Assembly (NCBI GenBank): GCA_913063225.1
Contig: CAJXYP010000001.1
Coordinates: 1 to 57,307, forward strand
Direction: 5' to 3'
DNA: 57,307 bases
Source: an uncultured Cellvibrionales bacterium
GTDB taxonomy: Bacteria > Pseudomonadota > Gammaproteobacteria > Pseudomonadales > GM7GCV1
Shown: positions 6,017 through 36,503 of the stretch, piece after piece
How the letters are laid out: each line of letters begins with the position of its first letter
How positions within the stretch are numbered: the stretch's first letter is position 1
Position numbers and translations under genes: made by a program
The notes under the pieces: generated by a model
The model's input: only the letters and a program-made list of their open reading frames with translations
The model's database searches: none
Told to the model about the DNA's origin: nothing

Positions 6017-6813
6017 GTTGTTGTTCCCCTAGATTTCGATTTTTGAGCTACGTAAATAAGTGCAAGGCCCGCGAGTAACATCGGTACACACAGAGTTTGT
6101 CCGCGCGTTATCCACCCAAAGAGCAACTCTTGTAAATGACTATCCGGCTCACGCACAAATTCTACGAGAAAGCGGAAGCAGGCATACATACTTAGGAATA
6201 ACCCAGACAATAAACCTGCCTGCCTAGGACGTCGTGCCAACCAATTCAAAACAACAAAAATAACCAGGCCTTCTAATAACGCCTCATATAACTGCGAAGG
6301 ATGCCGCGGTAACTGCAGTGGATCTCTGGGGAATACCATTGCCCACCAACCTTCGGTCGTCCGACCCCACAGCTCTTGCCCAACAAAGTTTCCAAGACGA
6401 CCAAGAAATAGGCCAATTGGCGCTAGCGGTGCAACAAAGTCCCCCAACTGTAAAAGTCCAATCTGATGCTTGCGGGAGAATAGGAGCAGCGCCAGGATTA
6501 CACCGATTAGACCGCCGTGAAATGACATGCCGCCTTCCCACACTCGCAGCAGCCAGAGTGGGTCTTCAACAAACCTCGAAAATTGATAAAAGAATACGTA
6601 GCCCGCACGACCTCCGAAAATAACACCCAAAGCACCGTAAAAAATCAGGTCTTCTACTCTTTCTGCCTTGACCGGGCTCCAGGGCCTTTTGGCCTGCAGA
6701 AGAGCGAGCCGCCACACACCGAGAAAACTTAGCAGGTAGGCGATGCCGTACCAATGTACCGAGAGCGGGCCGAGGCTAAAAGCGACTGGATCTATTTCAG
6801 GATAACCAAGCAT
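6013..6813 (-). CDS. lgt: Prolipoprotein diacylglyceryl transferase Lgt
   Basis: 266 aa, an inner-membrane enzyme that moves diacylglycerol from phosphatidylglycerol to the lipobox Cys of prolipoproteins. About seven transmembrane segments are visible. Diagnostic motifs are HGGLIG at 99-104 and [14 protein letters not shown] further on, followed by the HPSQLYEA motif. It sits between ptsP and thyA with a 4-base overlap into thyA, an order conserved in gammaproteobacteria. Several lipoproteins encoded in this window (the M48 protease, the LEA protein) would be its clients. Confidence 0.97.
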
Positions 6814-6917
6814 TTATGAGGACAATTAGTTTGATTGCAAAGGCAGAATTCGAGGCGCAACCCTAGCACGGCTTTAGGGCCGGTTAACACTAATTGTTAA
6901 AAGGGCTTTGGCGTGTA

Positions 6918-9200
6918 TTAGTGCGTCGTTATTTTTTTGAGGTTAGCCAGTCTGCGCAATTCCGGATCTTGGACAAAGTCCTCTAAACATTGATGCACGT
7001 CGGCTACATCCGCAACCGCCAATACCTTCTTAAGTAGTGGTCCCAATTCCGAATACTTTGAACTGCGGATCAGTGCTTTGACTCGCAGAAGATTAGAGGC
7101 GCTCATAGAAAGCGAATCATATCCCATGGCAATTAGCAGCAATGCTCCAAGAGGGTCACCTGCCAATTCGCCACATAGTCCAGCCGAAATCCCCTCGGCT
7201 CTCGCTGCATAGACTACGTGTTGTAACGCGGCCAATACTGCCGGGTGCATAGCATCATATAGATCCACCACTCTTGGATTGTTCCTATCCACCGCCAATA
7301 TGTATTGGGTTAGGTCGTTGCTGCCTACGGAAAGAAAATCGACTCGTTTGGCAAAATCCCGCGCCAGAAATACCGCCGAAGGTACCTCAATCATCGCACC
7401 CAATTTGGGCATCAATATTTCAAACCCTTCTTCTTCCGTCAACTCTTTGTGGGCCCGCTTAACCAGCGCCACAGCCATATCCAGTTCCGGCACGCCAGAT
7501 ATCATCGGGAACAAAATCGACAAGTTATCGAGCTGATAAGAAGCTTTCATCATGGCGCGGACTTGAGCGAGAAAAAGCTCCGGGTGATCGAGTGTAATAC
7601 GAATTCCGCGCCAACCTAGAAACGGATTTTCTTCACTAATCGGGAAGTATGGCAGCGCCTTGTCTCCACCAATATCCAACGTGCGCATAACTACCGGTCG
7701 CGGCGAAAACGCCTCTAACAGCTCTCGGTAAAATTGCCGCTGCTCTTCTTCCGTAGGAAATCTCTGGCGCGTAAAAAATGGTACTTCGCTGCGGAATAAG
7801 CCCACACCTTCAGCCCCGCGCTCAATCGACCTTCTTACATCTGCCATCAGGCCTGTATTCACCAGCAATTTAATACGGTGTTCATCTTGGGTAACCGCCG
7901 GCAAATCACGCAGTTGCTCTAACTCTGCATTTAACTCGGCATCTTCTTGCTGGAGGGCCTCAAAATGCTGCCTGTGTTCCTGCGTCGCATTGACGTACAT
8001 ATATCCATGGTGGCCATCTACGATAACTTCTTCGCCCTTCAATTTAGAGGGCCTGAGTCCCTCGACACCAACTACTGTCGGAATACCCATGGCCCGCGCC
8101 AAAATTGAGAGATGCGAATTTACCGAACCTTTGGCCGATACCAATCCCGCCAATCTTTCAGGCGGAACCATGCCAAACACATCTGCCGAAAGGTCTTCAC
8201 CGATTAAAATTGCGTTATCAGGGAACTCAAGTTTCTCATCTTGTTTTTCCTGCATATAACTAAGTACGCGCCTACCCAAATCTTTTATATCAACGGCTCG
8301 TTCTCGAAAGTATGGATCTTCCATAGCTTCGAAGTGTTTGCAATGCTGCAATATCACTTCGCTCCATGCCGTTTGGGCGGCAGCGCCTTCCTTAATGCGC
8401 GCTTTAACTTCTTTCCCCAGGTTTTGGTCATCGAGCATTTGTACATAAGCCGTGAACAGCAGGCGCTCTTGGTCTGATATAAGGCCGCTGAGACTGCGCT
8501 CCAGATCTTTGATGTGCATATGGGCGCGCAGGACCGCACCCTCGAATTCCTCTAGCTCTATTTTTGGCCCGCGGGGTTTAACCGCGCTGGTCGCATAAAG
8601 ATCGGCAACCGGAGAAATGATTACTGCTGTACCAATACCAATTCCGGGAGAGCCGGGCAAGCCGCGATATTCAACCTCTTGGTCAGCGCCCTGCCCACTC
8701 GTTAGTCGCTTTAATCCGCCAACGGACTCAGCGTGGGCGATAACTCCCGCAAGCTGCGCAGAAAGCGTAATAAGGAAAGCTTCGTCGCTCTCATCAAATT
8801 TTCGCTTCACTCTCTGCTGAACAACCAAGACGCCAAGCACTCGACGGTGATGGATGATGGGGACACCCAGAAAGGAGTTGTACTTTTCCTCACCGGTTTC
8901 CGGCAAGAATCGATAAGACGGGTGCTTTTCTGCGATTTCAAGATTGATTGGCTCTTCACGCCTGGCAACCAACCCGACAAGGCCTTCACCAACTCCCAAG
9001 CTGGCCTTACGCACCGCTTTTTGACTCAGCCCTTTGGTGGACATAAGTAAATAGCGCTGATTTTGCTCGTCGTAAAGATATACCGAGCAGACACTAACCG
9101 ACATGCTGCGCTTAACACGGCTAACGATTATATCTAGTGAAACCTCAAGATCAGCCGCCTCGGAAACTTGCTGAACAATAGACCGCAGGTCACTCAGCAC
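6918..9200 (-). CDS. ptsP: Phosphoenolpyruvate-protein phosphotransferase PtsP (EI-Ntr)
   Basis: 760 aa, usual length for PtsP. An N-terminal GAF domain (about 15-165) is followed by the EI fold. The phosphohistidine lies in GSVNSHLSILARAMGIP, the PEP-binding part includes GVGLFRSEVPF and MRTLDIGGDKALPYF, and a C-terminal TIM barrel contains SVGSNDLTQYILAVDRNN. It starts the nitrogen PTS relay (EI-Ntr to NPr to EIIA-Ntr), which senses nitrogen and potassium status. NPr and EIIA-Ntr are not in this window. The start is a GTG just after the rppH stop, and the N-terminus matches E. coli PtsP in register. Confidence 0.96.
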   Translation of the reverse strand: MLSDLRSIVQQVSEAADLEVSLDIIVSRVKRSMSVSVCSVYLYDEQNQRYLLMSTKGLSQKAVRKASLGVGEGLVGLVARREEPINLEIAEKHPSYRFLPETGEEKYNSFLGVPIIHHRRVLGVLVVQQRVKRKFDESDEAFLITLSAQLAGVIAHAESVGGLKRLTSGQGADQEVEYRGLPGSPGIGIGTAVIISPVADLYATSAVKPRGPKIELEEFEGAVLRAHMHIKDLERSLSGLISDQERLLFTAYVQMLDDQNLGKEVKARIKEGAAAQTAWSEVILQHCKHFEAMEDPYFRERAVDIKDLGRRVLSYMQEKQDEKLEFPDNAILIGEDLSADVFGMVPPERLAGLVSAKGSVNSHLSILARAMGIPTVVGVEGLRPSKLKGEEVIVDGHHGYMYVNATQEHRQHFEALQQEDAELNAELEQLRDLPAVTQDEHRIKLLVNTGLMADVRRSIERGAEGVGLFRSEVPFFTRQRFPTEEEQRQFYRELLEAFSPRPVVMRTLDIGGDKALPYFPISEENPFLGWRGIRITLDHPELFLAQVRAMMKASYQLDNLSILFPMISGVPELDMAVALVKRAHKELTEEEGFEILMPKLGAMIEVPSAVFLARDFAKRVDFLSVGSNDLTQYILAVDRNNPRVVDLYDAMHPAVLAALQHVVYAARAEGISAGLCGELAGDPLGALLLIAMGYDSLSMSASNLLRVKALIRSSKYSELGPLLKKVLAVADVADVHQCLEDFVQDPELRRLANLKKITTH

Positions 9201-12391: not shown

Positions 12392-13570
12392 ATGTCTACG
12401 AATTCTTCCGATCTGCAAATTGAATTTTTGCCTAGTATTAACGACATAGCGCCAGCTGACTGGAATAGCCTTAACCAGAACGACTACCCATTTACCCAGC
12501 ACCAATTTTTATCCGCGCTCGAAACTAGTGATTGCGTAGGAAAGGATACCGGCTGGCACCCACGTCATATTGCTATATACCGGGGTGACAAACTGATTGC
12601 TGCAATGCCCTGCTACCGCAAGGATCACTCCTACGGCGAATACGTATTTGATTGGAGCTGGGCTCAGGCATATCAGCAAAACGGATTGGACTATTACCCA
12701 AAGCTGGTCAGTGCCATTCCCTTTACTCCCGTGCCCGGCCCCAGGCTTCTCACCGAAAAGGGTGAAAATAAATCGATTTTGATGCAGGCGGTAATCCAAG
12801 CTATTCACTCACGCGCAAAAAGCGCTGGTTATTCGGGGTGGCATGTACTTTTTCCAGAAACTGATTTACTGGAAGGCAGTAGCGACCTAAAGATGCTAAA
12901 ACGAGAAGATGTGCAATTTCATTGGCACAACCATAATTATCAAAGCTTTGATGATTTTCTGGGCACGCTGCGATCATCCAAACGCAAGCAGTTGCGCCGA
13001 GAGCGCCGAATAGTTTCGGAACAAGGCATTGCAATGCGTCGTTACAGCGGCGATCAAATCGATAGCAAGATTCTGGAAAATTTCTATATCTGTTACTGCC
13101 AGACCTACCTGCGCCGAAGCGGACATAGCGGATATTTGAACCAACGTTTTTTTGAATCCGTTATAGAAAGTCTTGGCGACCAGACAATGATCGTATTGGC
13201 CATAAGAGATGAGAAGCCTGTCGCTGCGTCACTGTTCTTTTTCGATAGCACTAAGCTCTACGGTCGATATTGGGGGTGCACTGCTGATGTGGATTGCCTG
13301 CATTTTGAAGCCTGCTATTACCAGGGAATTGAGTTTGCGATAGAACGTGGTTTAACCGAATTCAATCCGGGCACTCAAGGCGAACATAAATTAGTGCGGG
13401 GATTTGAGCCTACAAAAACCTACTCCCTGCATTGGGTGCAGGATCAACGATTTCAAAACGCCCTTGAAGAATTTATGCAGCGTGAATCCGAGCATAAAAC
13501 CGAATATCAATTGGCCGCTCGAGAGGCGCTACCATTTCGGCAAGAAGGTTCATCTGAGAAGTCAAAATGA
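12392..13570 (+). CDS. FemAB-like GNAT-fold protein (DUF482 / PF04339 family)
   Basis: 392 aa soluble protein. It has the hallmarks of the DUF482 group, annotated as peptidoglycan biosynthesis/recognition or GNAT N-acetyltransferase: an early HQFLSALE segment, a long central region with RSSKRKQLRRERR, and a C-terminal acyltransferase-like part with YGRYWGC, FEACYYQGIEFAIERGL and the GTQGEHKLVRGFEP motif. The substrate is not known. The ATG follows the ubiA stop with no gap (TAGATG). The phoB Pho box lies 3 bases after its stop, so ubiA and this gene form one unit and phoBR another. Family confidence is high, function low. Confidence 0.85.
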   Translation: MSTNSSDLQIEFLPSINDIAPADWNSLNQNDYPFTQHQFLSALETSDCVGKDTGWHPRHIAIYRGDKLIAAMPCYRKDHSYGEYVFDWSWAQAYQQNGLDYYPKLVSAIPFTPVPGPRLLTEKGENKSILMQAVIQAIHSRAKSAGYSGWHVLFPETDLLEGSSDLKMLKREDVQFHWHNHNYQSFDDFLGTLRSSKRKQLRRERRIVSEQGIAMRRYSGDQIDSKILENFYICYCQTYLRRSGHSGYLNQRFFESVIESLGDQTMIVLAIRDEKPVAASLFFFDSTKLYGRYWGCTADVDCLHFEACYYQGIEFAIERGLTEFNPGTQGEHKLVRGFEPTKTYSLHWVQDQRFQNALEEFMQRESEHKTEYQLAAREALPFRQEGSSEKSK

Positions 13571-13573
13571 TAT

Positions 13574-13595
13574 CTGTCATGAATTTGTCACTTTG
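13574..13595 (+). promoter_or_regulatory. Pho box upstream of phoB
   Basis: Two 11-base half-sites in tandem, CTGTCATGAAT and TTGTCACTTTG, closely match the PhoB-binding consensus (CTGTCAT plus four A/T-rich bases, twice). The box ends 42 bases before the phoB ATG, and a TACAAT that could serve as a -10 lies at 13618-13623. This points to phosphate-starvation autoregulation of phoBR. Confidence 0.8.
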
Positions 13596-13637: not shown

Positions 13638-14348
13638 ATGACCCGCAAGACCGTTCTAATAGTTGACGATGAACCTGCCATTCGGGACATGCTAAAAGTT
13701 GCCTTGGAAATGGCGAACTTTGACTGCATAGAAGCAAAAAATGCCCACGAAGCGCAGATAGCCGTTACCGATAACCGCCCCGACCTGGTCCTACTAGATT
13801 GGATGATGCCCGATGTCACCGGAATCGAACTCTTACGCCGCTGGCGCAGAAACGAAGATACGCAATACCTTCCGGTAATTATGCTGACGGCTAAGGCCGA
13901 AGAAGAAAATGCTATCCGCGGTTTAGATGTCGGCGCAGATGACTATATTTCAAAACCATTTTCTCCCCGCGAACTCGCTTCTCGCATAAAGGCACTGATT
14001 CGTCGCTCAACACCAATAGTCTCTGAAGAGTTACTAATAGCTGGCGAGTTGATTTTGGACCCTGTGGGTAGATTAGCTTCTGTGAAAGGTCAAAACGTAT
14101 CCCTGGGCCCAACGGAATATAAGATGCTCGAGTTCTTTATGATGCATCCAAATCGGGCTTATACACGCGAGCAGCTTTTGAACAATGTGTGGGGAGCTAA
14201 CGTATATATCGATGAACGCACTATCGATGTGCACATTCGAAGACTGCGTAAAGCCCTCTCAATTGACGGATACGAAAATATAATTCAGACCGTTCGCGGT
14301 TTTGGTTATCGATTTTCTGAAGAAGCTCTGATTAAATCCACGGACTGA
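13638..14348 (+). CDS. phoB: Phosphate regulon response regulator PhoB
   Basis: 236 aa OmpR-type regulator. The receiver domain (1-120) has the acidic pair DDE at 10-12, phospho-acceptor D54 in LLDWMMPD, and the conserved Lys in YISKPFSPREL. The winged-helix DNA-binding domain (about 130-232) contains LGPTEYKMLEFFM and TIDVHIRRLRKAL. When phosphorylated by PhoR it activates the Pho regulon, here plausibly pstSCAB-phoU and phoBR itself. The Pho box just upstream and phoR just downstream make the assignment firm. Confidence 0.97.
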   Translation: MTRKTVLIVDDEPAIRDMLKVALEMANFDCIEAKNAHEAQIAVTDNRPDLVLLDWMMPDVTGIELLRRWRRNEDTQYLPVIMLTAKAEEENAIRGLDVGADDYISKPFSPRELASRIKALIRRSTPIVSEELLIAGELILDPVGRLASVKGQNVSLGPTEYKMLEFFMMHPNRAYTREQLLNNVWGANVYIDERTIDVHIRRLRKALSIDGYENIIQTVRGFGYRFSEEALIKSTD

Positions 14349-17957: not shown

Positions 17958-19976
17958 CTAAATACTTGTTGGGAATTGTATAAAAAACTCTACGCCAGAT
18001 TCATCAAGCAAATTTCTTGCTTCTATTTGCCCCTGGTGAAACTCAACTACCCGTTTGACCACAAACAGACCAAGGCCTAGATGCGGTTTTTCGCTTTTCT
18101 CCGATCTAAGGGATACCAGGGAATCAAATAGATTCTCTGACATATGCTCGGGCAAAATCGGGCCATCGTTTGCCACGGTTAAACAGATGTTTTGGTTTTC
18201 AGTCTCAAGCACAATGCGGATTTCTCGGGTACAAAAATCTGCCGCGTTATCCACTAACTTATCCATCATCTGAGCGAATAGATCTGCCGAACCCTGAAGT
18301 GGAACAGAAAGGGCCTTCTGCCCAATGTCTAAGCCAATAGCAATATTTGGATGAAGTTCTGAATATGCCGCTGCCAGATCCCGAAGAACCGCTGCGGGCT
18401 CAAAGGATTCCCGCTCCGTATTCTCTATGGCTGATTCGATTGCCGTAGATTGGCTCATTGAAGACAAAATAGTAGAGAGGCGATCGATCCCCTCTCTGGC
18501 TCGCTGCAGATACTTTTCTCTTTCCGCTCCTTCGCTGGCCTGTTCGAGGTTGTCTAAGGATGACCTTACAATGGCCACCGGAGTTCGTATCTCATGGGAG
18601 AGCTTTCCGGAAAGCGATTGCAGATACCCCGTGTAACCCCTAACCCGGTTCAACATCTCAGCGTACTGTCGACTCAGATCGCCTAACTCATCTTTCGAGT
18701 TTGAAGCCACAAAGGCTTTCTCTGAGCTTTCTCTTGCAGAGCCACCACGACTGCCGCGAACCAACTCAGAAGTTGCTCGACTCAATCGTCTTATGCGGGC
18801 AGACAACCACAATGCATAGGCAATCAGCCCCAAACTAGTTATGAGAAAAGCCGACCCGCTATACCAAAGCAAGCGTGTCAGGGCAGCGCTATTAATATCG
18901 CTCAGTGTTCGAGCGGGTTCATCCAGTATCAGTATCGCTACTCGAAGCCCGCCGATATCCAATGGATAGTAGGCGCGAGCTATTCGACGGTTGCCGTCGC
19001 GATGCCAAAGTACCTGAGGCTCACCAGCAGTTGCTTGCAATACTCGCTCGCCAAAAAACCCTGCCTGGTTTGCGTAACTAATACTGCCTACGAAATTCTG
19101 CGCACTGAGTAATTCATACAGCCTAGCCAGCCAATCCTCGGGCTCATTGAATAAGGTCGCCTGCTCCCCCACTACTGAAGCCGTAACGGAGCCGCTGTTG
19201 CTAAGTAAGAATATGGATTCTTCCAGATCGGAACTTGCCAATTGCTGAGCTGCGGCTTGCAGGCCATCATTGGTTTGCAGGTATCTAAGGGGCCGGCCCT
19301 GCGCGCTCAAGCCATCAGAGACTAGCGTTTGAATACCATTTTCAACCACTTCAAAACCCAGACTACTGCGCGCTACAAAATCTGGCACACGCAGCTCGAC
19401 AAGATAACCCTGCGGCGTTTCAGCCCAATAAGCGCTAAGCGTGTAGTCCAACACTTCAGTGTCGCCATTGGTTTCATATACACCCTGAAAAAGTCCTTCG
19501 CCACTGGTTCTGAGCCAGTATCTTTGTGTCCCTGTATGGAGGATTAAGTGGTCTCCAAAAACCAACTCTCCCAGATTGGGGCGATGGTATTGAATTTGTG
19601 AGTCGTCTACCTGCACACATAAATAGAGGTCGGACCCCAGCCGACCAGCCATATATAGAACACCTGAACCCAGATCCTGCCATGCCTTATCTACGGCACC
19701 AGAAGCAAGCGTCCAATCTGTGCATTCGCCGTTCAATACGGGTCGGGTATTTAAGTCCAGAAAATTTATTCCGCCTAGCTGAGGCGGCGGCAGAAGGCCG
19801 GCAAAAAGATCTGGTGAAGACTCCAGCTGAACCGCAATTGACTCTGCTCTATCCAGCAGAGCTTCTGCCTGCGTATCGAGTAACTGGGCATCTAACTGCC
19901 GCACATACTGACAACCAGCCCAAGGAAGGGTCAGCGTTAACAGGCTTACCAGAAACAGCTGTCGGCTAAGTTTCAC
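17958..19976 (-). CDS. pdsS: Sensor histidine kinase of the proteobacterial dedicated sortase type (PdsS-like)
   Basis: 672 aa, GTG start. The N-terminus (MKLSRQLFLVSLLTLTLPWAG) forms the first membrane helix. A long extracytoplasmic region (about 25-365) includes a beta-rich stretch (about 70-205) that resembles a CBM9-like carbohydrate-binding fold. A second membrane helix (about 368-392) and HAMP-like segment follow, then phosphoacceptor H461 in KLSHEIRTPVAIV, and an ATPase domain with DKLVDNAADF and LGLGLFVVKRVVEFH. The unusual N-terminus and sensor region match my recollection of the TIGR03785 family, which pairs with PdsR, sortase and an LPXTG-like target. No sortase is nearby. Histidine kinase is certain; PdsS subfamily is likely. 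Confidence 0.8.
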   Translation of the reverse strand: MKLSRQLFLVSLLTLTLPWAGCQYVRQLDAQLLDTQAEALLDRAESIAVQLESSPDLFAGLLPPPQLGGINFLDLNTRPVLNGECTDWTLASGAVDKAWQDLGSGVLYMAGRLGSDLYLCVQVDDSQIQYHRPNLGELVFGDHLILHTGTQRYWLRTSGEGLFQGVYETNGDTEVLDYTLSAYWAETPQGYLVELRVPDFVARSSLGFEVVENGIQTLVSDGLSAQGRPLRYLQTNDGLQAAAQQLASSDLEESIFLLSNSGSVTASVVGEQATLFNEPEDWLARLYELLSAQNFVGSISYANQAGFFGERVLQATAGEPQVLWHRDGNRRIARAYYPLDIGGLRVAILILDEPARTLSDINSAALTRLLWYSGSAFLITSLGLIAYALWLSARIRRLSRATSELVRGSRGGSARESSEKAFVASNSKDELGDLSRQYAEMLNRVRGYTGYLQSLSGKLSHEIRTPVAIVRSSLDNLEQASEGAEREKYLQRAREGIDRLSTILSSMSQSTAIESAIENTERESFEPAAVLRDLAAAYSELHPNIAIGLDIGQKALSVPLQGSADLFAQMMDKLVDNAADFCTREIRIVLETENQNICLTVANDGPILPEHMSENLFDSLVSLRSEKSEKPHLGLGLFVVKRVVEFHQGQIEARNLLDESGVEFFIQFPTSI

Positions 19977-20003
19977 AGCTTTAACATTTCTTTCAAGGTC
20001 AAA

Positions 20004-20705
20004 TTAGTCTTCAAGATTCCAGCGATAACCCATGCCATAGGCGGTTTGAATTCCGTCAAAACTTGCATCAGAAATCTGAAACTTCTTCCGCAGACGTTTT
20101 ATATGGGAGGTAATAGTGTTGTCATCCAGCACTACGTTAGCCGCATCCATCAGTTGCTGACGGTTTTTGACATGTCCGGGTGATTTCGCCAGGGCGTGCA
20201 ATATCCAAAACTCAGTAACCGTCAAATCGAGGGCTTCGTCTCGCCATTTTGCCGTCATGCGGTCCAAGTTTATTTCCAAGTCACCTCGATCTAACCTTTC
20301 ATCTTGGCCATCGCGATTAGACATCGCATCTACCCGGCGAAATAGCGCGACGATGCGGGCCAGCATATGTACCTGGCTAATATCCTTGGTCAAATAGTCA
20401 TCGGCTCCTAAGCGCAGCCCAGATATAACATCAAATTCAGAGTCTCGAGCCGTCAAAAAAATAATGGGCAACTCGGGCGCCATGGTCCGCAGCTGTCGAC
20501 AGAGGTCAAATCCGCCTTCAATTTCATCAGCCAAGCCAACATCTATAATGGCCAAATCCGGCAGGCGACTTTCAAATGAGCTCAAAGCCTCCTTACGAGT
20601 CTCATATAGGCGAACCTTGTATCCTTGCCGACGCAGCGCGTCTGAATAATTCGCAGCGATAGCCGGTTCATCCTCAACAATGGCGATTTCTCTAGCCACT
20701 TTCAC
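20004..20705 (-). CDS. pdsR: Response regulator of the dedicated sortase type (PdsR-like)
   Basis: 233 aa OmpR-type regulator. The receiver has EDEPAIAANYSDALRRQGY, phospho-acceptor D55 in LAIIDVGLADEIEGGFDLC, and Lys in DDYLTKDIS. The winged-helix domain carries LTVTEFWILHALAKSPGHVKNR and TITSHIKRLRKKF. The receiver and linker wording matches the TIGR03787 PdsR family as I know it. It starts the two-gene operon; pdsS begins 27 bases after its stop. The targets are unknown. The divergent porin at 21195 is the nearest candidate, though the 489-base gap argues for separate promoters. Confidence 0.82.
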   Translation of the reverse strand: MKVAREIAIVEDEPAIAANYSDALRRQGYKVRLYETRKEALSSFESRLPDLAIIDVGLADEIEGGFDLCRQLRTMAPELPIIFLTARDSEFDVISGLRLGADDYLTKDISQVHMLARIVALFRRVDAMSNRDGQDERLDRGDLEINLDRMTAKWRDEALDLTVTEFWILHALAKSPGHVKNRQQLMDAANVVLDDNTITSHIKRLRKKFQISDASFDGIQTAYGMGYRWNLED

Positions 20706-21194
20706 TCCCCTTCAAGCCAATAGAATCAGTTCGCTTATTCTATCCCTTGAGGGCGGCATAAAGCACTGGCAAAAAAACAGCGGCCACAATTGATCATAAT
20801 TGATAACTTCCAACACAGAAGTAAGCTCAAGAAAGACCGGCAGGTTCGATGTACTGATAAACAAATCTAAAGTGAGCTTTGCCATGCCTTTCAAGAAAAC
20901 TCGAGTACCAAGATATTTGATTATGGAAGACTCCAACCCTCAGATTGGTCGACGCTGGGTAAGCTGGCTAATACTTATTTTTTGCTGGGAACATTAGTAG
21001 TATTTACCCTTTTTTAAGTAGTGTGGATCAAACAACCGGCCGTTATACCCTTGCGCCAGCCTGGAATAGATAAAGGCTAGTTTTCATGAAAATGAAAAAG
21101 AAATGTCACATATATTTAATAATTTCATATAAGTGAAATATTTTGCGCCTAAAGTTCGCCGCAAATGAACTATTTGTGACATTTCGGAGAAATC
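20706..21194. other. Long divergent intergenic region between pdsR and the porin
   Basis: 489 bases with no supported gene. Short open frames of 60-75 codons (20712-20936 minus, 20800-20997 plus) lack ribosome-binding sites and look random. The last 120 bases are A/T-rich and probably hold the porin promoter and operators, described separately. Confidence 0.5.
21101..21184 (+). promoter_or_regulatory. Spaced inverted TGTCAC motifs ahead of the porin gene
   Basis: AAATGTCAC at 21101-21109 and its exact reverse complement GTGACATTT at 21176-21184 frame an A/T-rich segment just before the porin ribosome-binding site. Each holds a TGTCA core like half of a Pho box, and A/T bases follow each core, but the second half-site is poor in both. 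A PhoB operator for this OprP-type porin is plausible; another regulator is equally possible. Confidence 0.35.
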
Positions 21195-22262
21195 ATGCGA
21201 TTCATTAAACCTTCCATTGCTAGCCTCGCCTGCTTATTGGCGTCTGCATCCATTGCCCAGGGCCAAGTAACCACCGACGGTAATGATCTAATAATCAAAA
21301 CAAACGGCGGCCTATCCGTAGCAACCACCGACGGAGACTACTCAATGAAATTGGGCGGCCGACTTCAGTGGGATTACAACCAAGCAGAAGAAAATGGCAT
21401 TGTCGACGAAGACGCCTTTGATATCCGTAGAGCTCGCCTATATGTATCGGGTAACGTAAAAGACTGGGGCTACAAAGCCCAGTTCAATATCGGCAACGGC
21501 AATGGTGGCACCCCGGAAGATCTATACATCCGCTATAACGGACTGAGCAATGGCATGACCGTCACCATTGGCCGTCAAAAGGAACCATTCGGACTCGAGC
21601 AAATGATCAGCTCAAAAGACAACAGTATGTTAGAGCGCGGCGGCCCGGTTGAAGCTTATACACCTGGCCGCAGCGATGGTATTCAGCTAAACGGAACCGC
21701 GGGCGATGTTTACTACGGATTTGGTGTTTTCGAAGACGAAGACTCTAGCGGTACTAGCGACTTTACCCTTACCGGACGTGTCACAAGTGCGGTAGTAAAC
21801 ACGGGCGATTCACTGGTTCATTTGGGTTTGGGATATACCACTCGTGGAGACGATATCAGCACGGTCGGACTAGAAGCCGCATATTCTGTAGGCCCTCTTC
21901 ATGTTCAGGGCGAGTACTTTGCTTCAGATAATGCCGGTGTTGATCTAGATGGATATTACCTGCAAGCGGGCTGGATTATTACCGGAGAAAGCCGTCCGTA
22001 CTCAAAGGGTGTGTTTGGCAAGGTAAAATCAACAGACGTCGCTGGCGCTTGGGAAGTAGTCGTTAGATACGAAGCCGGTGACGGTGACGGCAACTACAGC
22101 GATATCGAGCTAGGCAGAACCGATGCAACCGCACTAGGTGTTGGCCTTAACTGGTATGCGAATGCCCTAACCAGACTAGGCATCGACTACACCACGGGCG
22201 ACGATGAAAACAGCACGGATACCGGCAGCGAATTCCGCGCCAGAGTACAGTTTGCGTTCTAA
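21195..22262 (+). CDS. OprP/OprO-family porin (phosphate-selective porin family)
   Basis: 355 aa outer-membrane beta barrel. The signal peptide ends at about residue 23 (IAQG-QVT). Features of the Porin_O_P family are LGGRLQWDYN, the DAFDIRRARLYVSGN strand, the YIRYNGLSNGMTVTIGRQKEPFGLEQ segment, and the late GWIITGESRPYSKGVFG motif; the chain ends in Phe (QFAF) as expected for BAM targeting. Family members in Pseudomonas pass phosphate or polyphosphate. Specificity here is inferred from family and from the TGTCAC motifs upstream. TCGGAGAAATC is the ribosome-binding site. It is monocistronic and ends in a strong terminator. Confidence 0.88.
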   Translation: MRFIKPSIASLACLLASASIAQGQVTTDGNDLIIKTNGGLSVATTDGDYSMKLGGRLQWDYNQAEENGIVDEDAFDIRRARLYVSGNVKDWGYKAQFNIGNGNGGTPEDLYIRYNGLSNGMTVTIGRQKEPFGLEQMISSKDNSMLERGGPVEAYTPGRSDGIQLNGTAGDVYYGFGVFEDEDSSGTSDFTLTGRVTSAVVNTGDSLVHLGLGYTTRGDDISTVGLEAAYSVGPLHVQGEYFASDNAGVDLDGYYLQAGWIITGESRPYSKGVFGKVKSTDVAGAWEVVVRYEAGDGDGNYSDIELGRTDATALGVGLNWYANALTRLGIDYTTGDDENSTDTGSEFRARVQFAF

Positions 22263-22283
22263 AAAAAGATTTGGCAGGATTCG

Positions 22284-22312
22284 AAAAAAGGGGTTAAGCA
22301 GCCCCTTTTTTT
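22284..22312. terminator. Bidirectional rho-independent terminator
   Basis: An A-run, a GC-rich stem (GGGGTTAAGC / GCAGCCCC region) and a T-run follow the porin stop. Because the A-run lies on one side and the T-run on the other, it can also end transcription of modABC from the opposite strand. Confidence 0.8.
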
Positions 22313-22357
22313 GTGGTCCCAAGCCGGAACAAGATCGCAACAAAAGCAGAACCAGAA

Positions 22358-23428
22358 TTATTGAATCAGTGACGCCGCCTTGATCTGCGCAAATACCGAA
22401 TCGCCAACTTTCAATTCAAGCTTGTCGCAGGAAAGACTAGACACTCTTGCCGCCAAGCTGGCCTGACCGGTTTTCAGGCTCACGAGCTTCTGCGAAGGAT
22501 GGTCAGTGGCTTCTATATCCGCGATTACCGATTCAAATATATTTAGAATACTTGAACCTTCAGGTCGTCCCAAACTAAGACTTATATCCTTTGCGTATAA
22601 CCTCAATCGCACCGCTTGATCTGCCGATACCTCCATTCCGGGCATCGAAATAAGCAGACCACTAGCATCAACCACCGTCAAATGATGTGCCGTACAGGCT
22701 TCACTCACTCTGCCTTCAAGCAGAGCAAAGGGCTCATCAGCCAATTCATTCAGAAGCCGATTGTTGTCCAATACTTGCATTAATGGTCCTTGCTCGCGCA
22801 CCTTGCCATCCTCCATAAGAACCAGGTGATCCGCCAATCGGATTACCTCTTCCAACGAGTGGCTTACATACAGCACCGGTATATCCAAGTTTCTTTGCAG
22901 TCGATCCAGGTAGGGCAAGATCTCGCGTTTTAATTGCACATCCAGGGAAGCCAGCGGCTCATCCATTAACAGCAATTTGGGGCTCGCTAGAAGAGCTCGG
23001 CCAATGGCCACCCGCTGCGCTTCTCCGCCAGACAAAGAATGAGTTTCTCTTTCCAACAGCTGATCGATATCGAGCAAGGCCACCACTTCATCAAAGCCAA
23101 TTTGACGGTCTTCAGCAGCGCGACGTTCGAATCCGTAATTAAGGTTTTCACGCACATTCAAATGAATAAACAGACTGGGTTGCTGAAATACAAAGCCAAC
23201 CGAGCGCTGATGCACGGGTAAGCAAATCTGGTTGGAATGCCATACCTCGCCCATCAACTGAATCTGTGCATTATCAAGCTCAATTAGGCCTGCTATGGCT
23301 CGCAAAAGACTGGTCTTACCAGACCCAGAAGGGCCAAATATTGCCGTCACACCCTTCGCCGGAACAGCAAAGTTAGCATCCAACTGAAAGTTTCCTAGAC
23401 TAGCTTGAACCGAAATATTCAGGCTCAT
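22358..23428 (-). CDS. modC: Molybdate ABC transporter ATP-binding protein ModC
   Basis: 356 aa. The N-terminal ABC ATPase has Walker A GPSGSGKTS, Q-loop VFQQPSLF, signature LSGGEAQRVAIGRALL and Walker B LLLMDEPLASLD. A C-terminal TOBE/MOP-type domain (about 290-350) binds molybdate for feedback control. It drives import through ModB. It overlaps modB by 4 bases. The TOBE region and modA/modB neighbours separate it from generic importers. Confidence 0.95.
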   Translation of the reverse strand: MSLNISVQASLGNFQLDANFAVPAKGVTAIFGPSGSGKTSLLRAIAGLIELDNAQIQLMGEVWHSNQICLPVHQRSVGFVFQQPSLFIHLNVRENLNYGFERRAAEDRQIGFDEVVALLDIDQLLERETHSLSGGEAQRVAIGRALLASPKLLLMDEPLASLDVQLKREILPYLDRLQRNLDIPVLYVSHSLEEVIRLADHLVLMEDGKVREQGPLMQVLDNNRLLNELADEPFALLEGRVSEACTAHHLTVVDASGLLISMPGMEVSADQAVRLRLYAKDISLSLGRPEGSSILNIFESVIADIEATDHPSQKLVSLKTGQASLAARVSSLSCDKLELKVGDSVFAQIKAASLIQ

Positions 23429-24099
23429 ACTTTCACCAGATCAAAGCGTCGATTAATGCTGTATACAAATACCAGAAGAGCAAATGAGAGTATCAATAGC
23501 CCAGCAGACAACCAATGGGCTTGGCCGTATTCAAGGGCAGCGACGTGGTCGTATATGGCGATGGATAGAACTTGGGTTTTCCCGGGAATATTGCCGCCAA
23601 TCATCAAGACCACGCCAAACTCACCCAAGGTATGGGCAAAGCCCAAAACGGCGCCGGTCAAATAACCTCTTCGGGCTAAAGGCAAAAGTATCGAGACAAA
23701 CAAGTCTCGCCCGCTCGAGCCAAGGGTGCGGGCAACTTCAAAGGGCCTATCGCCTATCTCCACAAATGCCTGGTGCAAGGGCTGCACCACAAAGGGTAGT
23801 GAATATATAACCGAACCTATGACTAATCCGGCGAAGCTAAAACTTAACGCCGACAAACCCATAGCCTCAAAGGCTCCACCTATAGCCCCCTGTGGCCCGA
23901 GGCTAATTAGTAAATAGAATCCAAGAACCGTCGGCGGAAGCACAAGGGGTAAGGCCACCAAGGCTTCAACCACTACTTTAAATCGACCCTTATTGTGCGC
24001 CAGCCACCAAGCTAAGGGCGTGCTTATCAACAGCAAGATTGCGGTTGATACACCAGCAAGCTTTAAGCTTAGCCACAAGGCGGCTATGTCAGGATGCAT
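23425..24099 (-). CDS. modB: Molybdate ABC transporter permease ModB
   Basis: 224 aa with five membrane helices. The EAA motif that contacts ModC lies in EVARTLGSSGRDLFVSILLPLARRGYL, and LGFAHTLGEFGVVLMIGG is characteristic of ModB. Forms the membrane channel of the molybdate importer. Lies 28 bases downstream of modA and overlaps modC. Confidence 0.95.
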   Translation of the reverse strand: MHPDIAALWLSLKLAGVSTAILLLISTPLAWWLAHNKGRFKVVVEALVALPLVLPPTVLGFYLLISLGPQGAIGGAFEAMGLSALSFSFAGLVIGSVIYSLPFVVQPLHQAFVEIGDRPFEVARTLGSSGRDLFVSILLPLARRGYLTGAVLGFAHTLGEFGVVLMIGGNIPGKTQVLSIAIYDHVAALEYGQAHWLSAGLLILSFALLVFVYSINRRFDLVKV

Positions 24100-24127
24100 T
24101 TATTAATCCAGTCACTTTCAGTAAAAC

Positions 24128-24877
24128 CTATTCGCCAAGAGCATAACCTGCTTCCACAATAAGTTTTTGTATCTCATGGCTTTTAAGAAAACTCATAAAT
24201 TGTCGCGCGGTTGCATCTTCCGTTAGCAGCAAGGCTTGCTGGCGAATGGGCTCGTATAGCTCTTGGTCCAGAATCTGATATTCGCCCTGCTCTTCCAGTG
24301 ATAACACCAAGACTTGAGAGAGTGCCACAAAACCAAGATCGGCCGCGCTGCTCTCCACAAACTGAAAGGTTTGGGCCAGGTTTTCACCCTGCACTAGCTT
24401 TGGCTGTATCTCATCTACCAAGCCCATGTGCGTCAAAACCTCTGTTGCCGCCAACCCGTAAGGAGCCAGCCTGGGATTAGCGATGGCAAGATATTGGTAA
24501 CTATCCAATTCTGAGAGCGCTACAAGACTTTCCGAGCTCCAAAGTACCAGCCGACCCAAGGCGTAAGTAAAGCGAGAATTTTCTACGCCGAATCCCGCCT
24601 GCTCCAGCAATCGGGGTCGTTCTTCATCTGCCGACAAAAAAACATCAAAGGGTGCGCCATGAACAATTTGTGCGTACTGATGCCCCGTAGAGCCCAAGGC
24701 CAATATCACCGAATGACCAGTAGCCTCTTCAAAGCGCTGGGATATAGCTTTTGCGGTAGTTGAAAAATTGGAAGCCACGGCTACGACAATTTCTTCTGCG
24801 TTTGCCAGCGGCATACAGAAAAACAATATGTATATAGAGGATACGCAGATTCGAAATTTGAGAGGTGGGAAATGCAT
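24128..24877 (-). CDS. modA: Molybdate ABC transporter substrate-binding protein ModA
   Basis: 249 aa from the ATG at 24877; a longer frame reaches 25000 but would put 41 unlikely residues before the signal peptide. Signal peptide is about residues 1-27, and the mature protein starts EEIVVAVASNFSTTAKAI, the ModA N-terminal signature whose Ser residues bind the oxyanion. GSTGHQYAQIVHGAPFDVFLSAD follows. The protein captures molybdate or tungstate in the periplasm. First gene of modABC. No ModE-like palindrome or Moco riboswitch was recognised upstream. Confidence 0.93.
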   Translation of the reverse strand: MHFPPLKFRICVSSIYILFFCMPLANAEEIVVAVASNFSTTAKAISQRFEEATGHSVILALGSTGHQYAQIVHGAPFDVFLSADEERPRLLEQAGFGVENSRFTYALGRLVLWSSESLVALSELDSYQYLAIANPRLAPYGLAATEVLTHMGLVDEIQPKLVQGENLAQTFQFVESSAADLGFVALSQVLVLSLEEQGEYQILDQELYEPIRQQALLLTEDATARQFMSFLKSHEIQKLIVEAGYALGE

Positions 24878-25000
24878 TGCCAAATAGTTAGGTATGCACC
24901 GCCAAATGGCAAGCTGAACAGCGGCTCTACACCCTAAATTGTCAGGATTAGGCCAAAAAAAGCGCACTACGGCGCCACAATAATTGCTCGGACAGGGCAA

Positions 25001-25684
25001 TTATTCGCGGATAGAGCCTATATATAGGGTTACATCGCGAATTTGTTGATCTGAAAGAATATTTTCCCAAACCGGAGACTCACCTTCACGACCCCTTTCT
25101 ATAGCGTCGTAAACCGTTGCGTAATCGTGGCCATAGAGGGAAATGTCATCGATAAGACTGGGTGCACCATACCATTCGACTTGGCCGGCAAAATCAAACC
25201 CATGGCATTCGCTACATACATTTATTGCGGTGTCTTCCGCACGCGTTACCGCATCCGCGGGAACATCTTCGCCGCGCAGACTCCCTACGTAATAGGTCAG
25301 ATCGATTAGCAATTGGGCATCGTATCCAACACCAGACTCCTGCTCTCCATAGGCCGGCATTTGATAGAAACGTGCTTTTTCGTGACCCGAGCGTATGCCG
25401 TACTTAATAACGTAAGCCATGTCGGCCAACTCAGGGCCCCAGAGTGTTTCATCATCAAGTAAGTTGGGAACGCCCGGCATTCCGGCGCCTTCAACTCCGT
25501 GGCAAACCATGCAGTAGGTGCCAAATACTTGCTCGCCCTGAGACAAAGCAGCGCGGTATTGGCCTGCATCGGCCTGAGTTTCGGCAAACCCCAAATCCAG
25601 AACCTCCCACTGCCACTGAGCGACACTAGGAGAGCAAGCGATATAGAGCGCAACAAAAGCGGCCGAGAGAATTAAGCTTTTCAT
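25001..25684 (-). CDS. Periplasmic diheme c-type cytochrome, CcoP-like
   Basis: 227 aa from the ATG at 25684, chosen because a signal peptide (1-23) begins there. A longer frame to 25759 needs a TTG and has no signal. Two class I cytochrome c domains carry CMVCH (C58, C61, H62) and CSECH (C158, C161, H162). The layout resembles the C-terminal part of cbb3 oxidase subunit CcoP, with PNLLDDETLWG and GR-like motifs. M110 (QMPAY) can be the distal ligand of heme 1, but the second domain contains no Met at all. Likely a soluble electron carrier; the partner is unknown. Confidence 0.85.
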   Translation of the reverse strand: MKSLILSAAFVALYIACSPSVAQWQWEVLDLGFAETQADAGQYRAALSQGEQVFGTYCMVCHGVEGAGMPGVPNLLDDETLWGPELADMAYVIKYGIRSGHEKARFYQMPAYGEQESGVGYDAQLLIDLTYYVGSLRGEDVPADAVTRAEDTAINVCSECHGFDFAGQVEWYGAPSLIDDISLYGHDYATVYDAIERGREGESPVWENILSDQQIRDVTLYIGSIRE

Positions 25685-25771
25685 TTTGGTGAGCCAAAAT
25701 ATATCTGTATGCGGTGTATTTTGGTCCTTGGAGGAAAGCACATCCATGATTTGCATCAAGACAACGAAATA

Positions 25772-25791
25772 CCGGAGCCTTGCGGCTCCGG
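25772..25791 (-). terminator. Hairpin downstream of the OmpA-family gene
   Basis: A perfect 8-bp stem (CCGGAGCC / GGCTCCGG) with a 4-base loop lies 70 bases after the stop of the OmpA-family gene on the minus strand, followed by a weak T-rich run (TATTTCGTT). It probably ends that transcript. Confidence 0.55.
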
Positions 25792-25860
25792 ATGGGGGTC
25801 TGCGATCGAATTTACAGTTCGAACGCAGGGTGAAGGGAACTGAAAAGCTAGTCCTACTAT

Positions 25861-26592
25861 TTAGTGGCTCTGTGCCAAGCCAGTTGTTGGCTGCTTGTAG
25901 ACTTCTATATTTACGCGGCGTTCCAGAGCATAGGATTCGTAGTCTCCGCTAACCGCTTCTGATTCGTCAGCACCGTGGAAATGAATCTGCACCCGTTCTT
26001 GATCGATACCTTTTCCGTACAGGGCATTGGCTACTGACAGTGCCCGAAACTTAGCAAGCACATTGTTGTATTCATCTGATCCCCGAGGGTCAGCATGTCC
26101 ATCAAGGCGAACACTTAGCTCGGGATTGCGCTGCAAATAACCCGCCAACATATCGATACGTGTTTGGTCTTGCTCTTGAATTACATCTTCGCCGGTACGA
26201 AACATCATTTGAAATTCCAATCGGGTTTCATCATTTGCGGCAATTTCTGTTCGAAGCTCAGTTTCGAGAAAGGCAATGCGCGCTTGCTGTTGCTGCAGTT
26301 CGCTTTCAAGTATCTCGGTTTCTGCACTAGCCGCCCGAAAAGCTTGCTCGGTGCTTGGCAAGGCATCCGCTTTTTTAAGTTGCTCGCCAAAATAGACGCC
26401 GCTCAATGCGCCAGCGAACATCCCAACGGGACCGCCCATCACCAATCCGGCAATCGCGCCTCCACCAAAACCAAGGCCTGGCTTAATTTCCGAAAGTGCA
26501 TCTTCTGCGCTAGCACCGGCACTAATTAAGGAGCTAACTAAAAATGCTGCGATTAGGGTGGATATAGCTAATAGAGTATTTGTCTTTTTCAT
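25861..26592 (-). CDS. OmpA-family protein resembling sortase-system protein PdsO
   Basis: 243 aa. Signal peptide about 1-29 (ending GASA). A Gly-rich segment (about 40-70, GFGGGAIAGLVMGGPVGMF) looks like a glycine-zipper membrane insert, and a coiled coil follows (about 85-125). The C-terminal OmpA domain (about 135-235) has LDGHADPRGSDEYNN and LERRVNIEV, which bind peptidoglycan. This combination fits PdsO (TIGR03789), the OmpA-like partner of the dedicated sortase system. PdsS/PdsR-like genes lie 5-8 kb away, which supports the idea, but no sortase is present. A GAGGAATACC ribosome-binding site supports the start. OmpA fold is certain; PdsO identity is moderate. Confidence 0.8.
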   Translation of the reverse strand: MKKTNTLLAISTLIAAFLVSSLISAGASAEDALSEIKPGLGFGGGAIAGLVMGGPVGMFAGALSGVYFGEQLKKADALPSTEQAFRAASAETEILESELQQQQARIAFLETELRTEIAANDETRLEFQMMFRTGEDVIQEQDQTRIDMLAGYLQRNPELSVRLDGHADPRGSDEYNNVLAKFRALSVANALYGKGIDQERVQIHFHGADESEAVSGDYESYALERRVNIEVYKQPTTGLAQSH

Positions 26593-26842
26593 TTGGTATT
26601 CCTCGTTCTCAAATCTGGTTCTAAAAAGTTAGATCAGCAGTTGCGCTGGCATGGACGTCATTAAAGAGACACAACCAGTCTTTCAAGAGATCGAATTAGG
26701 TTGAACTAATGAGCAAATATGACGAAATATGGCAAGGCATACGCCAGCTGCAACAAAGGCATCAAGAGAGGCCGAAAAAGAAAGAAACTAGAAGGGAGCT
26801 AAGTGGCTATAGACGCCTGTGGCGCATAAAGAGCACCTGCGG

Positions 26843-27586
26843 CTATAAAAAGAGCAGCTTAATAATAAAGATGATCAACACAACATTGAGTACGCGGTTA
26901 ATAAGGTGCTCGCCCTTGCTCACCGACATATTCGCGCCTATCCAACCACCAATGGAATTGCCCACCGCCAAGCAAAGACCGGCTATCCAAAAAATCTCTA
27001 CCTGCGAAGCAAAGATAAATAGTGCAACACTGGTATAGCAGAGCACTACAAAAACCTTGTGCATATTTACCCGCACCAGATCCAAGCCCATTACCCGGTG
27101 CAATATTGGCATCAGTAAAAAGCCCACCCCAATTTGAATAAAGCCGCCCCAAAATCCCGCACCCACCATACAGATATGGCCGGCAATCAGCCGTTTAGTC
27201 GAAGGCTTTCCAACCTCTGTCGCTTCTTTCTTAGGCAGCGCCATAATGATCATCACGGCGACCATTACCAAAGCCAATACCCTATCAAACCACTCGCCTG
27301 ACAGCTGAGTTCCCACCATCGCTCCGACAATAGCTCCCGGCGTGGCAGCTGCCGCTAGACTTAAACTCAATTTGAAATCAGAAAAACCGCGTCGGAAAAA
27401 GGCGGTAACAGCCGTAATGTTTTGCGCCAAGATCGCTATACGATTGGTGCCGTTTGCAACGGGTCCGGGCATGCCCATAAAGAGCATTATTGGTACCGTA
27501 AGTAGCGAACCACCGCCGGCCATAACGTTTAGCCATCCGGCAAAAACACCGACAAAGGTCAACAGCGGAAAATACCAGAATTCCAC
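26843..27586 (-). CDS. TauE/SafE family sulfite/organosulfonate exporter-like protein
   Basis: 247 aa, GTG start, about eight membrane helices in two repeated halves. The family signatures FAGWLNVMAGGGSLLTVP and GFIQIGVGFLLMPIL are clear. Members export sulfite, sulfoacetate or related anions, or are of unknown specificity; nothing nearby identifies the substrate. Confidence 0.88.
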   Translation of the reverse strand: MEFWYFPLLTFVGVFAGWLNVMAGGGSLLTVPIMLFMGMPGPVANGTNRIAILAQNITAVTAFFRRGFSDFKLSLSLAAAATPGAIVGAMVGTQLSGEWFDRVLALVMVAVMIIMALPKKEATEVGKPSTKRLIAGHICMVGAGFWGGFIQIGVGFLLMPILHRVMGLDLVRVNMHKVFVVLCYTSVALFIFASQVEIFWIAGLCLAVGNSIGGWIGANMSVSKGEHLINRVLNVVLIIFIIKLLFL

Positions 27587-35252: not shown

Positions 35253-36389
35253 TTAAAGCTGCATTGCTCTCATAGAGGCAGCGTCTGAGCCAAAGCTCTC
35301 TCGTTCTTCTTCTGGCATCGGAATCAATCCACGATCCGTTAGGTAGCCATCGTCACCCCAAGCCCGCTCTGACGTGAACTCATTAATGAACTCTTGCATG
35401 CCGGGAACAACCGAACTGTGCTGAGCTTTCACATAGAGATAGAGTGGACGGGAGACACTGTAAGAGCCGTCGGCGATGGCGTCAAACTCTGGCGTAACTC
35501 CTTCGATGACATGGCCCTGAACCGAGTCACTATTTTGATCCAAAAAGCTATATCCGAAGATACCTATGGCCTCACCGTTTGAGTTTAGCTTTTGTACGAT
35601 TAGGTTGTCGTTTTCGCCCGTTTCAACGTAAACGCCGTCTTCTCGAATGGTATGCGATAGCGCGCCAAAGACATCACCACCGTCAGCGCCGTTTTCAGCC
35701 ATACCCGCCATATCACCAATGCCTGCAGCATTCATAATGGCGATTAACTCACTGCCTTCTGCGCCCTCGATAGCCGCAAGAACCGGGAATCGTTCAGCAC
35801 CCACTTCCATCACAAGCTCAAGAAATGCATCCCGCGTACCGGAAGTAGGCGGAGGTCCTAAAATTTCAATGCGCCGATTTGGCAAACTGGCATTTATTTG
35901 ATTCCAATGCGTATAAGAATTTTCCACCAACTGAGTACCGTCTGCGCTTGGAACATTTGCAGCTAAAGCCAAAAATATTTCGTCTAGAGTCAACTCCATC
36001 ACGTCGTGGTCATAGCTGCTAGCAATTACCACACCGTCGTACCCAACCTTAAGTTCAAGAATGTCGGTAACGCCGTTAGTCTGGCAATCGTCAAACTCGC
36101 TTTGCTTGATGCGCCGAGACGCGTTGACCATATCGGCATACTCAACGCCGACACCGCCGCAAAACTGTTTCATACCACCGCCCGTACCGGTAGACTCGAC
36201 CTTAGGTGTTGGATAATCCGTAGAACGGCCAAATCGTTCAGCCACTACCGTGGTAAATGGATATACGGTAGAAGAACCTACAACGCTGATTTGATCTCGT
36301 GCGGCCTGTGCAGCAGGAGAAGCAATCATCAGAATTGTGATAGAAGTGGCAACAAAAAGGGATATATAAGGCTTCATTAGTTTGGTCAT
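35253..36389 (-). CDS. pstS: Phosphate ABC transporter substrate-binding protein PstS
   Basis: 378 aa. Signal peptide about 1-29 (ending AQA). The phosphate-binding stretches are visible as ISVVGSSTVYPFT, ESTGTGGGMKQFC and GPPTSGTRDAFLE. It captures phosphate in the periplasm. First gene of pstSCAB-phoU, with a Pho box about 50 bases upstream. Two in-frame ATGs lie 4 codons apart at the start; the first is used here. Confidence 0.95.
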   Translation of the reverse strand: MTKLMKPYISLFVATSITILMIASPAAQAARDQISVVGSSTVYPFTTVVAERFGRSTDYPTPKVESTGTGGGMKQFCGGVGVEYADMVNASRRIKQSEFDDCQTNGVTDILELKVGYDGVVIASSYDHDVMELTLDEIFLALAANVPSADGTQLVENSYTHWNQINASLPNRRIEILGPPPTSGTRDAFLELVMEVGAERFPVLAAIEGAEGSELIAIMNAAGIGDMAGMAENGADGGDVFGALSHTIREDGVYVETGENDNLIVQKLNSNGEAIGIFGYSFLDQNSDSVQGHVIEGVTPEFDAIADGSYSVSRPLYLYVKAQHSSVVPGMQEFINEFTSERAWGDDGYLTDRGLIPMPEEERESFGSDAASMRAMQL

Positions 36390-36438: not shown

Positions 36439-36460
36439 GTTTATGTAAGAAAAATGACAC
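36439..36460 (-). promoter_or_regulatory. Pho box upstream of pstS
   Basis: On the minus strand the half-sites GTGTCATTTTT and CTTACATAAAC lie in tandem 11 bases apart, matching the PhoB consensus well in the first and acceptably in the second. A TAAATA that may be the -10 begins 9 bases further on, and the pstS ATG is 50 bases away. The same box lies 44 bases ahead of the divergent TRAP gene start at 36504. Confidence 0.75.
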
Positions 36461-36503
36461 TTTTGTGAAAATGGGCATATTAGTTTCCGGGGGGAATAAT
36501 AGG

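Follow-up and report, generated by a model that had tools for sequence, protein, structure and literature searches.

We have analyzed by computation a stretch of DNA of 57,307 nucleotides (the window) from an uncultured Cellvibrionales bacterium (contig CAJXYP010000001.1, assembly GCA_913063225.1), which encodes a sensor kinase, a response regulator and an OmpA-type protein related to PdsS, PdsR and PdsO of the proteobacterial dedicated sortase system. In that system, as in Shewanella loci L213 and L215, these proteins (TIGR03785, TIGR03787 and TIGR03789, respectively) occur with a sortase (TIGR03784) and its target (TIGR03788). Judging from sequence, the three genes of the window probably form a sortase-free PdsS-PdsR-PdsO regulon: a 22-bp operator-like box lies upstream of both the regulator and the OmpA gene, and neither a sortase nor a target is detectable in the genome. 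PdsS-PdsR-PdsO is best read as a core envelope regulon, of which the sortase-target cassette is a separable output, absent here. We found no paper on PdsS, PdsR or PdsO (most subscription journals were outside the search).

The window belongs to a genome of 2.26 Mb in 32 contigs, estimated to be 96.8% complete. An earlier note, made from the letters alone, had described a PdsS/PdsR-like pair and a PdsO-like OmpA protein within 9 kb, with a porin, modABC and a diheme cytochrome between them. The open reading frames of the kinase, regulator and OmpA protein were found where that note had placed them, their best families agree with the description, and all three intervening elements were identified by family and Pfam matches. 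The features are:

17958–19976 (−): PdsS-like sensor histidine kinase (TIGR03785, below cut-off; Pfam HAMP/HisKA/HATPase; fold).
20004–20705 (−): PdsR response regulator with a receiver and an OmpR-type DNA-binding domain; its gene comes first in the pdsRS pair (TIGR03787; Pfam).
20781–20802 (−): candidate PdsR box, 76 bp upstream of the pdsR start, reading toward pdsR (26.2 bits).
21195–22262 (+): Porin_O_P porin, divergent neighbour of the regulator, probably outside the regulon (Pfam; box 393 bp away).
22358–25000 (−): modC-modB-modA (family and Pfam matches).
25001–25759 (−): c-type cytochrome with two matched heme domains (family and Pfam matches).
25772–25791 (−): terminator-like hairpin separating the PdsO-like gene from the cytochrome-mod genes (consensus scan only).
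25861–26592 (−): PdsO-like protein (TIGR03789, below cut-off; Pfam OmpA; structure model).
26714–26735 (+): candidate PdsR box, 122 bp upstream of the PdsO-like gene start, reading away from the gene (27.3 bits; in no training set).

The regulator matches TIGR03787 with 385.9 bits, above the cut-off of 335.7. TIGR03785 is the best family for the kinase, with a full-length match of 459 bits (cut-off 612.2), and TIGR03789 for the OmpA protein, with 109.1 bits (cut-off 152.2). The earlier note had proposed these three models as a check; the regulator passes, and the other two proteins stay under the cut-offs of the models that they match best, so that the scores do not all fall short. The worth of the cut-offs was assessed in 145 genomes of the order, which served as the comparison set for family searches. 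The TIGR03785 cut-off is reached by the kinases of six genomes, four of which (family f44) match neither TIGR03784 nor PF04203; the TIGR03789 cut-off is reached in a single genome, itself without a sortase, and G100 and G127, which do have a sortase, reach 110.7 and 110.5 bits, similar to the window protein. Thus, the TIGR03785 and TIGR03789 cut-offs do not separate sortase from non-sortase systems here. TIGR03787 is the cleaner marker, with 40 of the 145 genomes passing. The f44 kinases (L044–L047) have the top TIGR03785 scores of the set (788–850 bits), and no sortase match is found in these four genomes.

The absence of a sortase or target between the regulator pair and the OmpA gene, as described in the earlier note, extends to the genome as a whole, which has no match to the TIGR03784 sortase or the TIGR03788 LPXTG-type target (E ≤ 0.001), nor to the PF04203 sortase family (E ≤ 0.01). 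Remnants of either gene were not detected by tblastn in the 20 kb around the window genes (L041). The genome holds a single match to each of TIGR03785 (E ≤ 1e-60) and TIGR03787 (E ≤ 1e-75), and there is therefore no second cluster, with a PdsS/PdsR of its own, of the kind that the earlier note had considered. Across the five genomes of the window's family, TIGR03784, PF04203 and the target model have no match; the fifth of these genomes (G001) also lacks a regulator, a kinase and a good match to PdsO.

The box was defined by an expectation-maximization motif search on the non-coding DNA upstream of 42 regulator genes, with coding sequence trimmed and 11 regulators without the anchor motif dropped. 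The resulting 22-bp motif, cAATtgTGatgAATTgTGGCAa, is a direct repeat with a 10-bp period, the usual arrangement for OmpR/PhoB-type regulators, and has a log-likelihood ratio of 341 compared to 79–84 in three shuffled sets. A matrix retrained on 39 upstream regions, without the window's family, identifies two strong sites in the window, which are those listed above; at such scores, 0.0023 (26714–26735) and 0.0056 (20781–20802) sites are expected per genome on a simple base-composition background. The region upstream of the OmpA gene was never part of any training set. A third site, within gcvT, scores 16.9 bits, which is close to chance, and shuffled windows peak at 18.6 bits (20 trials, earlier matrix). 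A pattern scan of the genome without mismatches returns both window sites and C5:93575 (15.8 bits). Among the 22 genomic places that have no more than one mismatch to the pattern, the window sites rank first and second (26.9 and 23.2 bits over 19 shared columns), followed by C23:7170 (19.4 bits) and C5:93575 (18.1 bits); this gap in score indicates that the other places are near chance level. The half-site AATTGTGGC alone, with one mismatch allowed, is uninformative (20 window matches, 17.6 expected). The repeat associated with CreB, TTCAC-N6-TTCAC, was also considered as the box and rejected, as no 5-mer repeat with a 6-base gap is common to more than 2 of 38 upstream regions. We define membership in the box regulon by a box upstream of the regulator and another upstream of a PdsO-like gene, and the window has both.

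Both boxes are kept in G003, of the same genus (20.5 bits at the regulator and 25.1 bits at the OmpA gene), and in G002, of another genus (21.1 and 24.5 bits). In the 40 genomes with a regulator above the cut-off, and for the genes in hand, boxes of at least 17 bits are located upstream of 30 of 39 regulators, 21 of 24 targets and 17 of 21 PdsO-like genes (13/13 with a sortase and 4/8 without). The orientation is constant, toward pdsR and away from pdsO and the target in each case. Some of these boxed genes share one divergent intergenic region; for genes that do not, the box is found at 16 of 28 PdsO rows (including one contig-cut duplicate) and 8 of 10 targets in the order set, with families beyond the 40. 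Only 3 of 1318 other genes of the same loci, and none of 11 generic OmpA control loci, have a box. When loci were chosen by TIGR03789 score alone, it was present in 7 of 15, and the eight without it come from f34, f42, G004 and G121. Targets placed second in the order sortase-target-PdsO lack their own promoter region. A fresh motif search on 28 selected loci (Shewanella, Photobacterium, Alteromonas, Pseudoalteromonas, Colwellia and others) gave CAATTGTGGCAAAAAAATGGCA, which has the same half-site in the same orientation as the order-set box (log-likelihood ratio 415 versus at most 79); two of the 28 loci (L210 and L220) have no site of this type. The earlier note had suspected a tie of the regulator pair to the OmpA protein, and the shared operator-like box, together with co-occurrence in relatives, supports it.

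Several observations, in addition to the kinase and OmpA scores below cut-off, weigh against this regulon. The OmpA-gene box of G004, from the same genus as the window, is weak at 11.4 bits (its regulator box scores 27.2 bits). In family f34 (L051–L053 and L133–L135), the regulator and the PdsO-like gene both lack a box in three sortase-free genomes, and the PdsO-like genes of f15 and f42 are also without one. In genomes from titled records, counted with the first matrix, the box is present among PdsO-like genes at only 4 of the 6 that are separate and 1 of the 14 that are divergent, and among targets at only 1 of 15 separate ones (14 of 18 when divergent); most of the genes concerned belong to the clade with the variant box CAATTGTGGCAAAAAAATGGCA. 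The references for the PdsO label were drawn partly from loci in which the box had already been seen. Finally, another OmpR-type regulator might bind the box. Two variants were noted within these families: G073 (f34) has a box at the target and at PdsO and none at the regulator, and f15 (L090, L091, L093, L094 and L095) has an OmpA-regulator-kinase run with no sortase and no box of this type, its regulators having diverged to ∼40% identity to that of the window.

Sortase presence changes repeatedly among relatives. Among the 40 genomes with a regulator above the cut-off, a TIGR03784 match at E ≤ 1e-40 is found in 25 and is missing from 15, the latter including all four regulator-bearing genomes of the window's family. 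In a regulator tree of 57 rows, built by a quick method and with several long branches, the window is one of 44 rows that form a starred set, and 25 of these rows come from sortase genomes; at least 9 changes in sortase presence are required on this tree, 5 of which are forced by starred branches, and the tree by itself does not tell gain from loss. Kinase relatives were also collected from titled records, of which 80 loci were kept from 367, nearly all labelled gammaproteobacterial. In 135 loci, the families recurring within seven genes of the kinase are the regulator type (117), PdsO (52), target (49) and sortase (45), and no other cluster exceeds 13; PdsO is present without a sortase or target in the stretch in 35 of its 52 kinase loci. 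A second OmpA cluster of low similarity lies near the kinase in 9 loci. In 24 titled genomes, neither a sortase nor a target lies near the kinase; half of them (12) carry a TIGR03784 sortase above the cut-off at another place and the other 12 do not, while four other titled genomes, picked for a sortase or target in the stretch, all have the sortase. Thus, the premise of the earlier note that a sortase and its target adjoin these genes is correct for some relatives, with the genes unlinked or absent in others. In L235 (uncultured Paraglaciecola), one of the 12 titled genomes with no TIGR03784 match above the cut-off, a frame-broken sortase (6690–7297) and target (7286–8063) lie beside an intact PdsO-regulator-kinase trio, which is sortase loss in progress. 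Together, the relatives suggest that, in the so-called sortase system, the sortase is optional. One report found that deletion of the putative sortase gene srtA, perhaps not the TIGR03784 gene, did not raise current density in Shewanella oneidensis (PMC8176591).

The kinase consists of an N-terminal membrane helix, a long periplasmic part with a CBM9-like β-sandwich, and HAMP, HisKA and HATPase domains. The conserved His461 and Asn577 are kept and are invariant in 16 sequences. The periplasmic part was modelled with 57 relatives (predicted local distance difference test score 80.8). For the β-sandwich of this model, CBM9 modules rank first with Z-scores of 13.2, 12.9 and 12.4, followed by an ethylbenzene dehydrogenase subunit (11.4) and antibody folds (about 6), and Foldseek matches the periplasmic model to CBM9 with E-values of 2.8e-4 to 3.9e-4. 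Against the assignment, the sensor part of the window kinase matches no Pfam family at E ≤ 0.01, PF06452 (CBM9) included. PF06452 does match 14 of the 58 alignment members and Cache models match 10 and 4, with neither matching the window's own sequence. The model predicts a CBM9 fold for the sensor. We found no publication that combines CBM9, a histidine kinase and a sensor domain. The PdsO-like protein contains a signal-type helix, glycine-zipper helices, a coiled coil and an OmpA domain of the peptidoglycan-binding type (Pfam and model). Its Asp168 and Arg183, which we take to be the positions that bind peptidoglycan in OmpA-like domains, are invariant in 32/32 PdsO-like proteins. Compared to G003, the proportions of nonsynonymous and synonymous differences (pN/pS) are 0.091/0.85 for the regulator, 0.275/0.80 for the kinase and 0.242/0.83 for the PdsO-like gene, with synonymous sites saturated; the low pN relative to pS indicates purifying selection on all three.

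The following mechanism can be proposed. PdsS would sense a periplasmic signal, possibly a glycan, via its CBM9-like domain and phosphorylate PdsR, which would then bind the tandem half-sites of the 22-bp box in front of both its own operon and the pdsO-like gene. Through these two boxes, PdsR would control itself and PdsO, either by activation or by repression. The glycine zipper would hold PdsO at a membrane while the OmpA domain grips peptidoglycan, so that PdsO could tether or stiffen the envelope. The same box precedes the sortase-target cassette in many relatives, an output that this lineage would be without.

The earlier note had offered a dispersed system, a relic, or a pair reused to control envelope genes such as the porin. 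In the last case, the pair would have been redirected to the divergent porin or similar envelope genes, and the OmpA protein would be of the ordinary YiaD/OmpA type. In three species of the genus, the porin is indeed the divergent neighbour of the regulator, YiaD is the second model for the OmpA protein (75.8 bits), and OmpA domains are common, TIGR03789 at E ≤ 1e-15 matching 140 of the 145 genomes. The box, however, lies 330–393 bp from the porin in these species, beside the regulator, and is the only strong one of the intergenic region in the window, where the distance is 393 bp; the porin was set aside as the main target because no strong box lies near it, although a weaker site could still act. 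The porin region has a Pho box with 2/14 mismatches in G004, but only 4-mismatch sites in the window and in G003, and sites of that quality are common in the window; control of the porin by PhoB would be a guess from this weak evidence. The OmpA gene, in contrast to the generic OmpA control loci, has a box of its own. We consider such reuse unlikely. Very unlikely, on sequence grounds, is a real box bound by a different OmpR-type regulator, the regulator and PdsO-like genes being co-targets of a third system. Other such regulators exist in the genome (for example, PhoB at 13638–14348), but the box recurs upstream of most of the PdsR genes and targets counted above (30 of 39 and 21 of 24), and the diverged f15 regulators are without it.

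A complete but dispersed system, with the sortase and target in the unassembled few percent of the genome, has a slimmer chance still. Unlinked sortases are common, as in half of the 24 titled genomes considered above, and the genome is not fully complete; however, dispersal fits those relatives and not this genome, and no sortase or target match is found in any of the five genomes of the window's family. The slimmest chance is that of a relic left by loss of the sortase-target cassette, with the other three genes now in decay. L235 makes loss in progress visible, but the three frames of the window are open, the catalytic residues of the kinase are kept, both boxes are retained in G003, and pN/pS is far below 1 for all three genes, synonymous sites being saturated.

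A sortase-free PdsS-PdsR-PdsO regulon can also be compared with known systems. It resembles the dedicated sortase system in having a regulator above the cut-off, a kinase and an OmpA protein that best match the models of that system, and the same half-site box. It differs in that no sortase or target is detectable in the genome, the kinase and OmpA scores are below cut-off, and the OmpA gene lies 5 kb away with its own box, rather than adjoining the regulator. Microbulbifer (L179, L194, L208 and L221) likewise has a boxed PdsO-like gene and a regulator together with its kinase, although in these loci PdsO is the first gene of the cluster, and all four genomes have a TIGR03784 sortase elsewhere. 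CreB and CreC, of the same regulator and kinase type, are the next-best models for the window pair (187.1 and 128.4 bits), far below their cut-offs (273 and 356); the periplasmic domain match and the box are also different. The OmpA protein shares the OmpA domain with YiaD and Pal, and among solved structures Pal is closest to it in sequence. It is nevertheless below the cut-offs of these families (75.8 of 175 and 64.3 of 125.35) and, in addition, has the box upstream.

In the surroundings of these genes, the hairpin at 25772–25791 suggests that the PdsO-like gene and the cytochrome-mod genes are separate transcripts; the consensus scan found 11 such hairpins in the region, with 7.4 expected. 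No sigma-70 consensus promoter was found in 20500–27000, compared to 8.2 expected in shuffles. Phosphate genes flank the wider area, with phoB and phoR on one side and phoU and pstB on the other. A FemAB_like protein (PF04339, 500 bits) at 12392–13570 (+) adjoins phoB-phoR, and Pho-box-like sites are located upstream of phoB (13574–13591 (+), 2/14 mismatches) and upstream of a PstS-like gene at 35253–36389 (within 36443–36471 (−), 3 and 4 mismatches).

The evidence is of known protein families in a variant layout, with a newly defined operator box and the sortase as a movable part. Tentatively, and with somewhat less than even confidence, we suggest that PdsS-PdsR may be an old gammaproteobacterial envelope-sensing system, perhaps glycan-sensing, that was not originally a sortase regulator, with PdsO as its most constant partner and the sortase-target cassette as an exchangeable output plugged in, moved or lost under the same box. 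If so, the name "dedicated sortase system" would fit only a subset. Annotation pipelines name these proteins after a sortase that is not detectable in 15 of the 40 genomes of the order with a regulator above the cut-off. The CBM9-like sensor predicted by the model would offer a testable clue to the signal. A defined operator box would make the regulon predictable in other genomes, with the sensor-switch, the OmpA partner and the sortase as separate modules.

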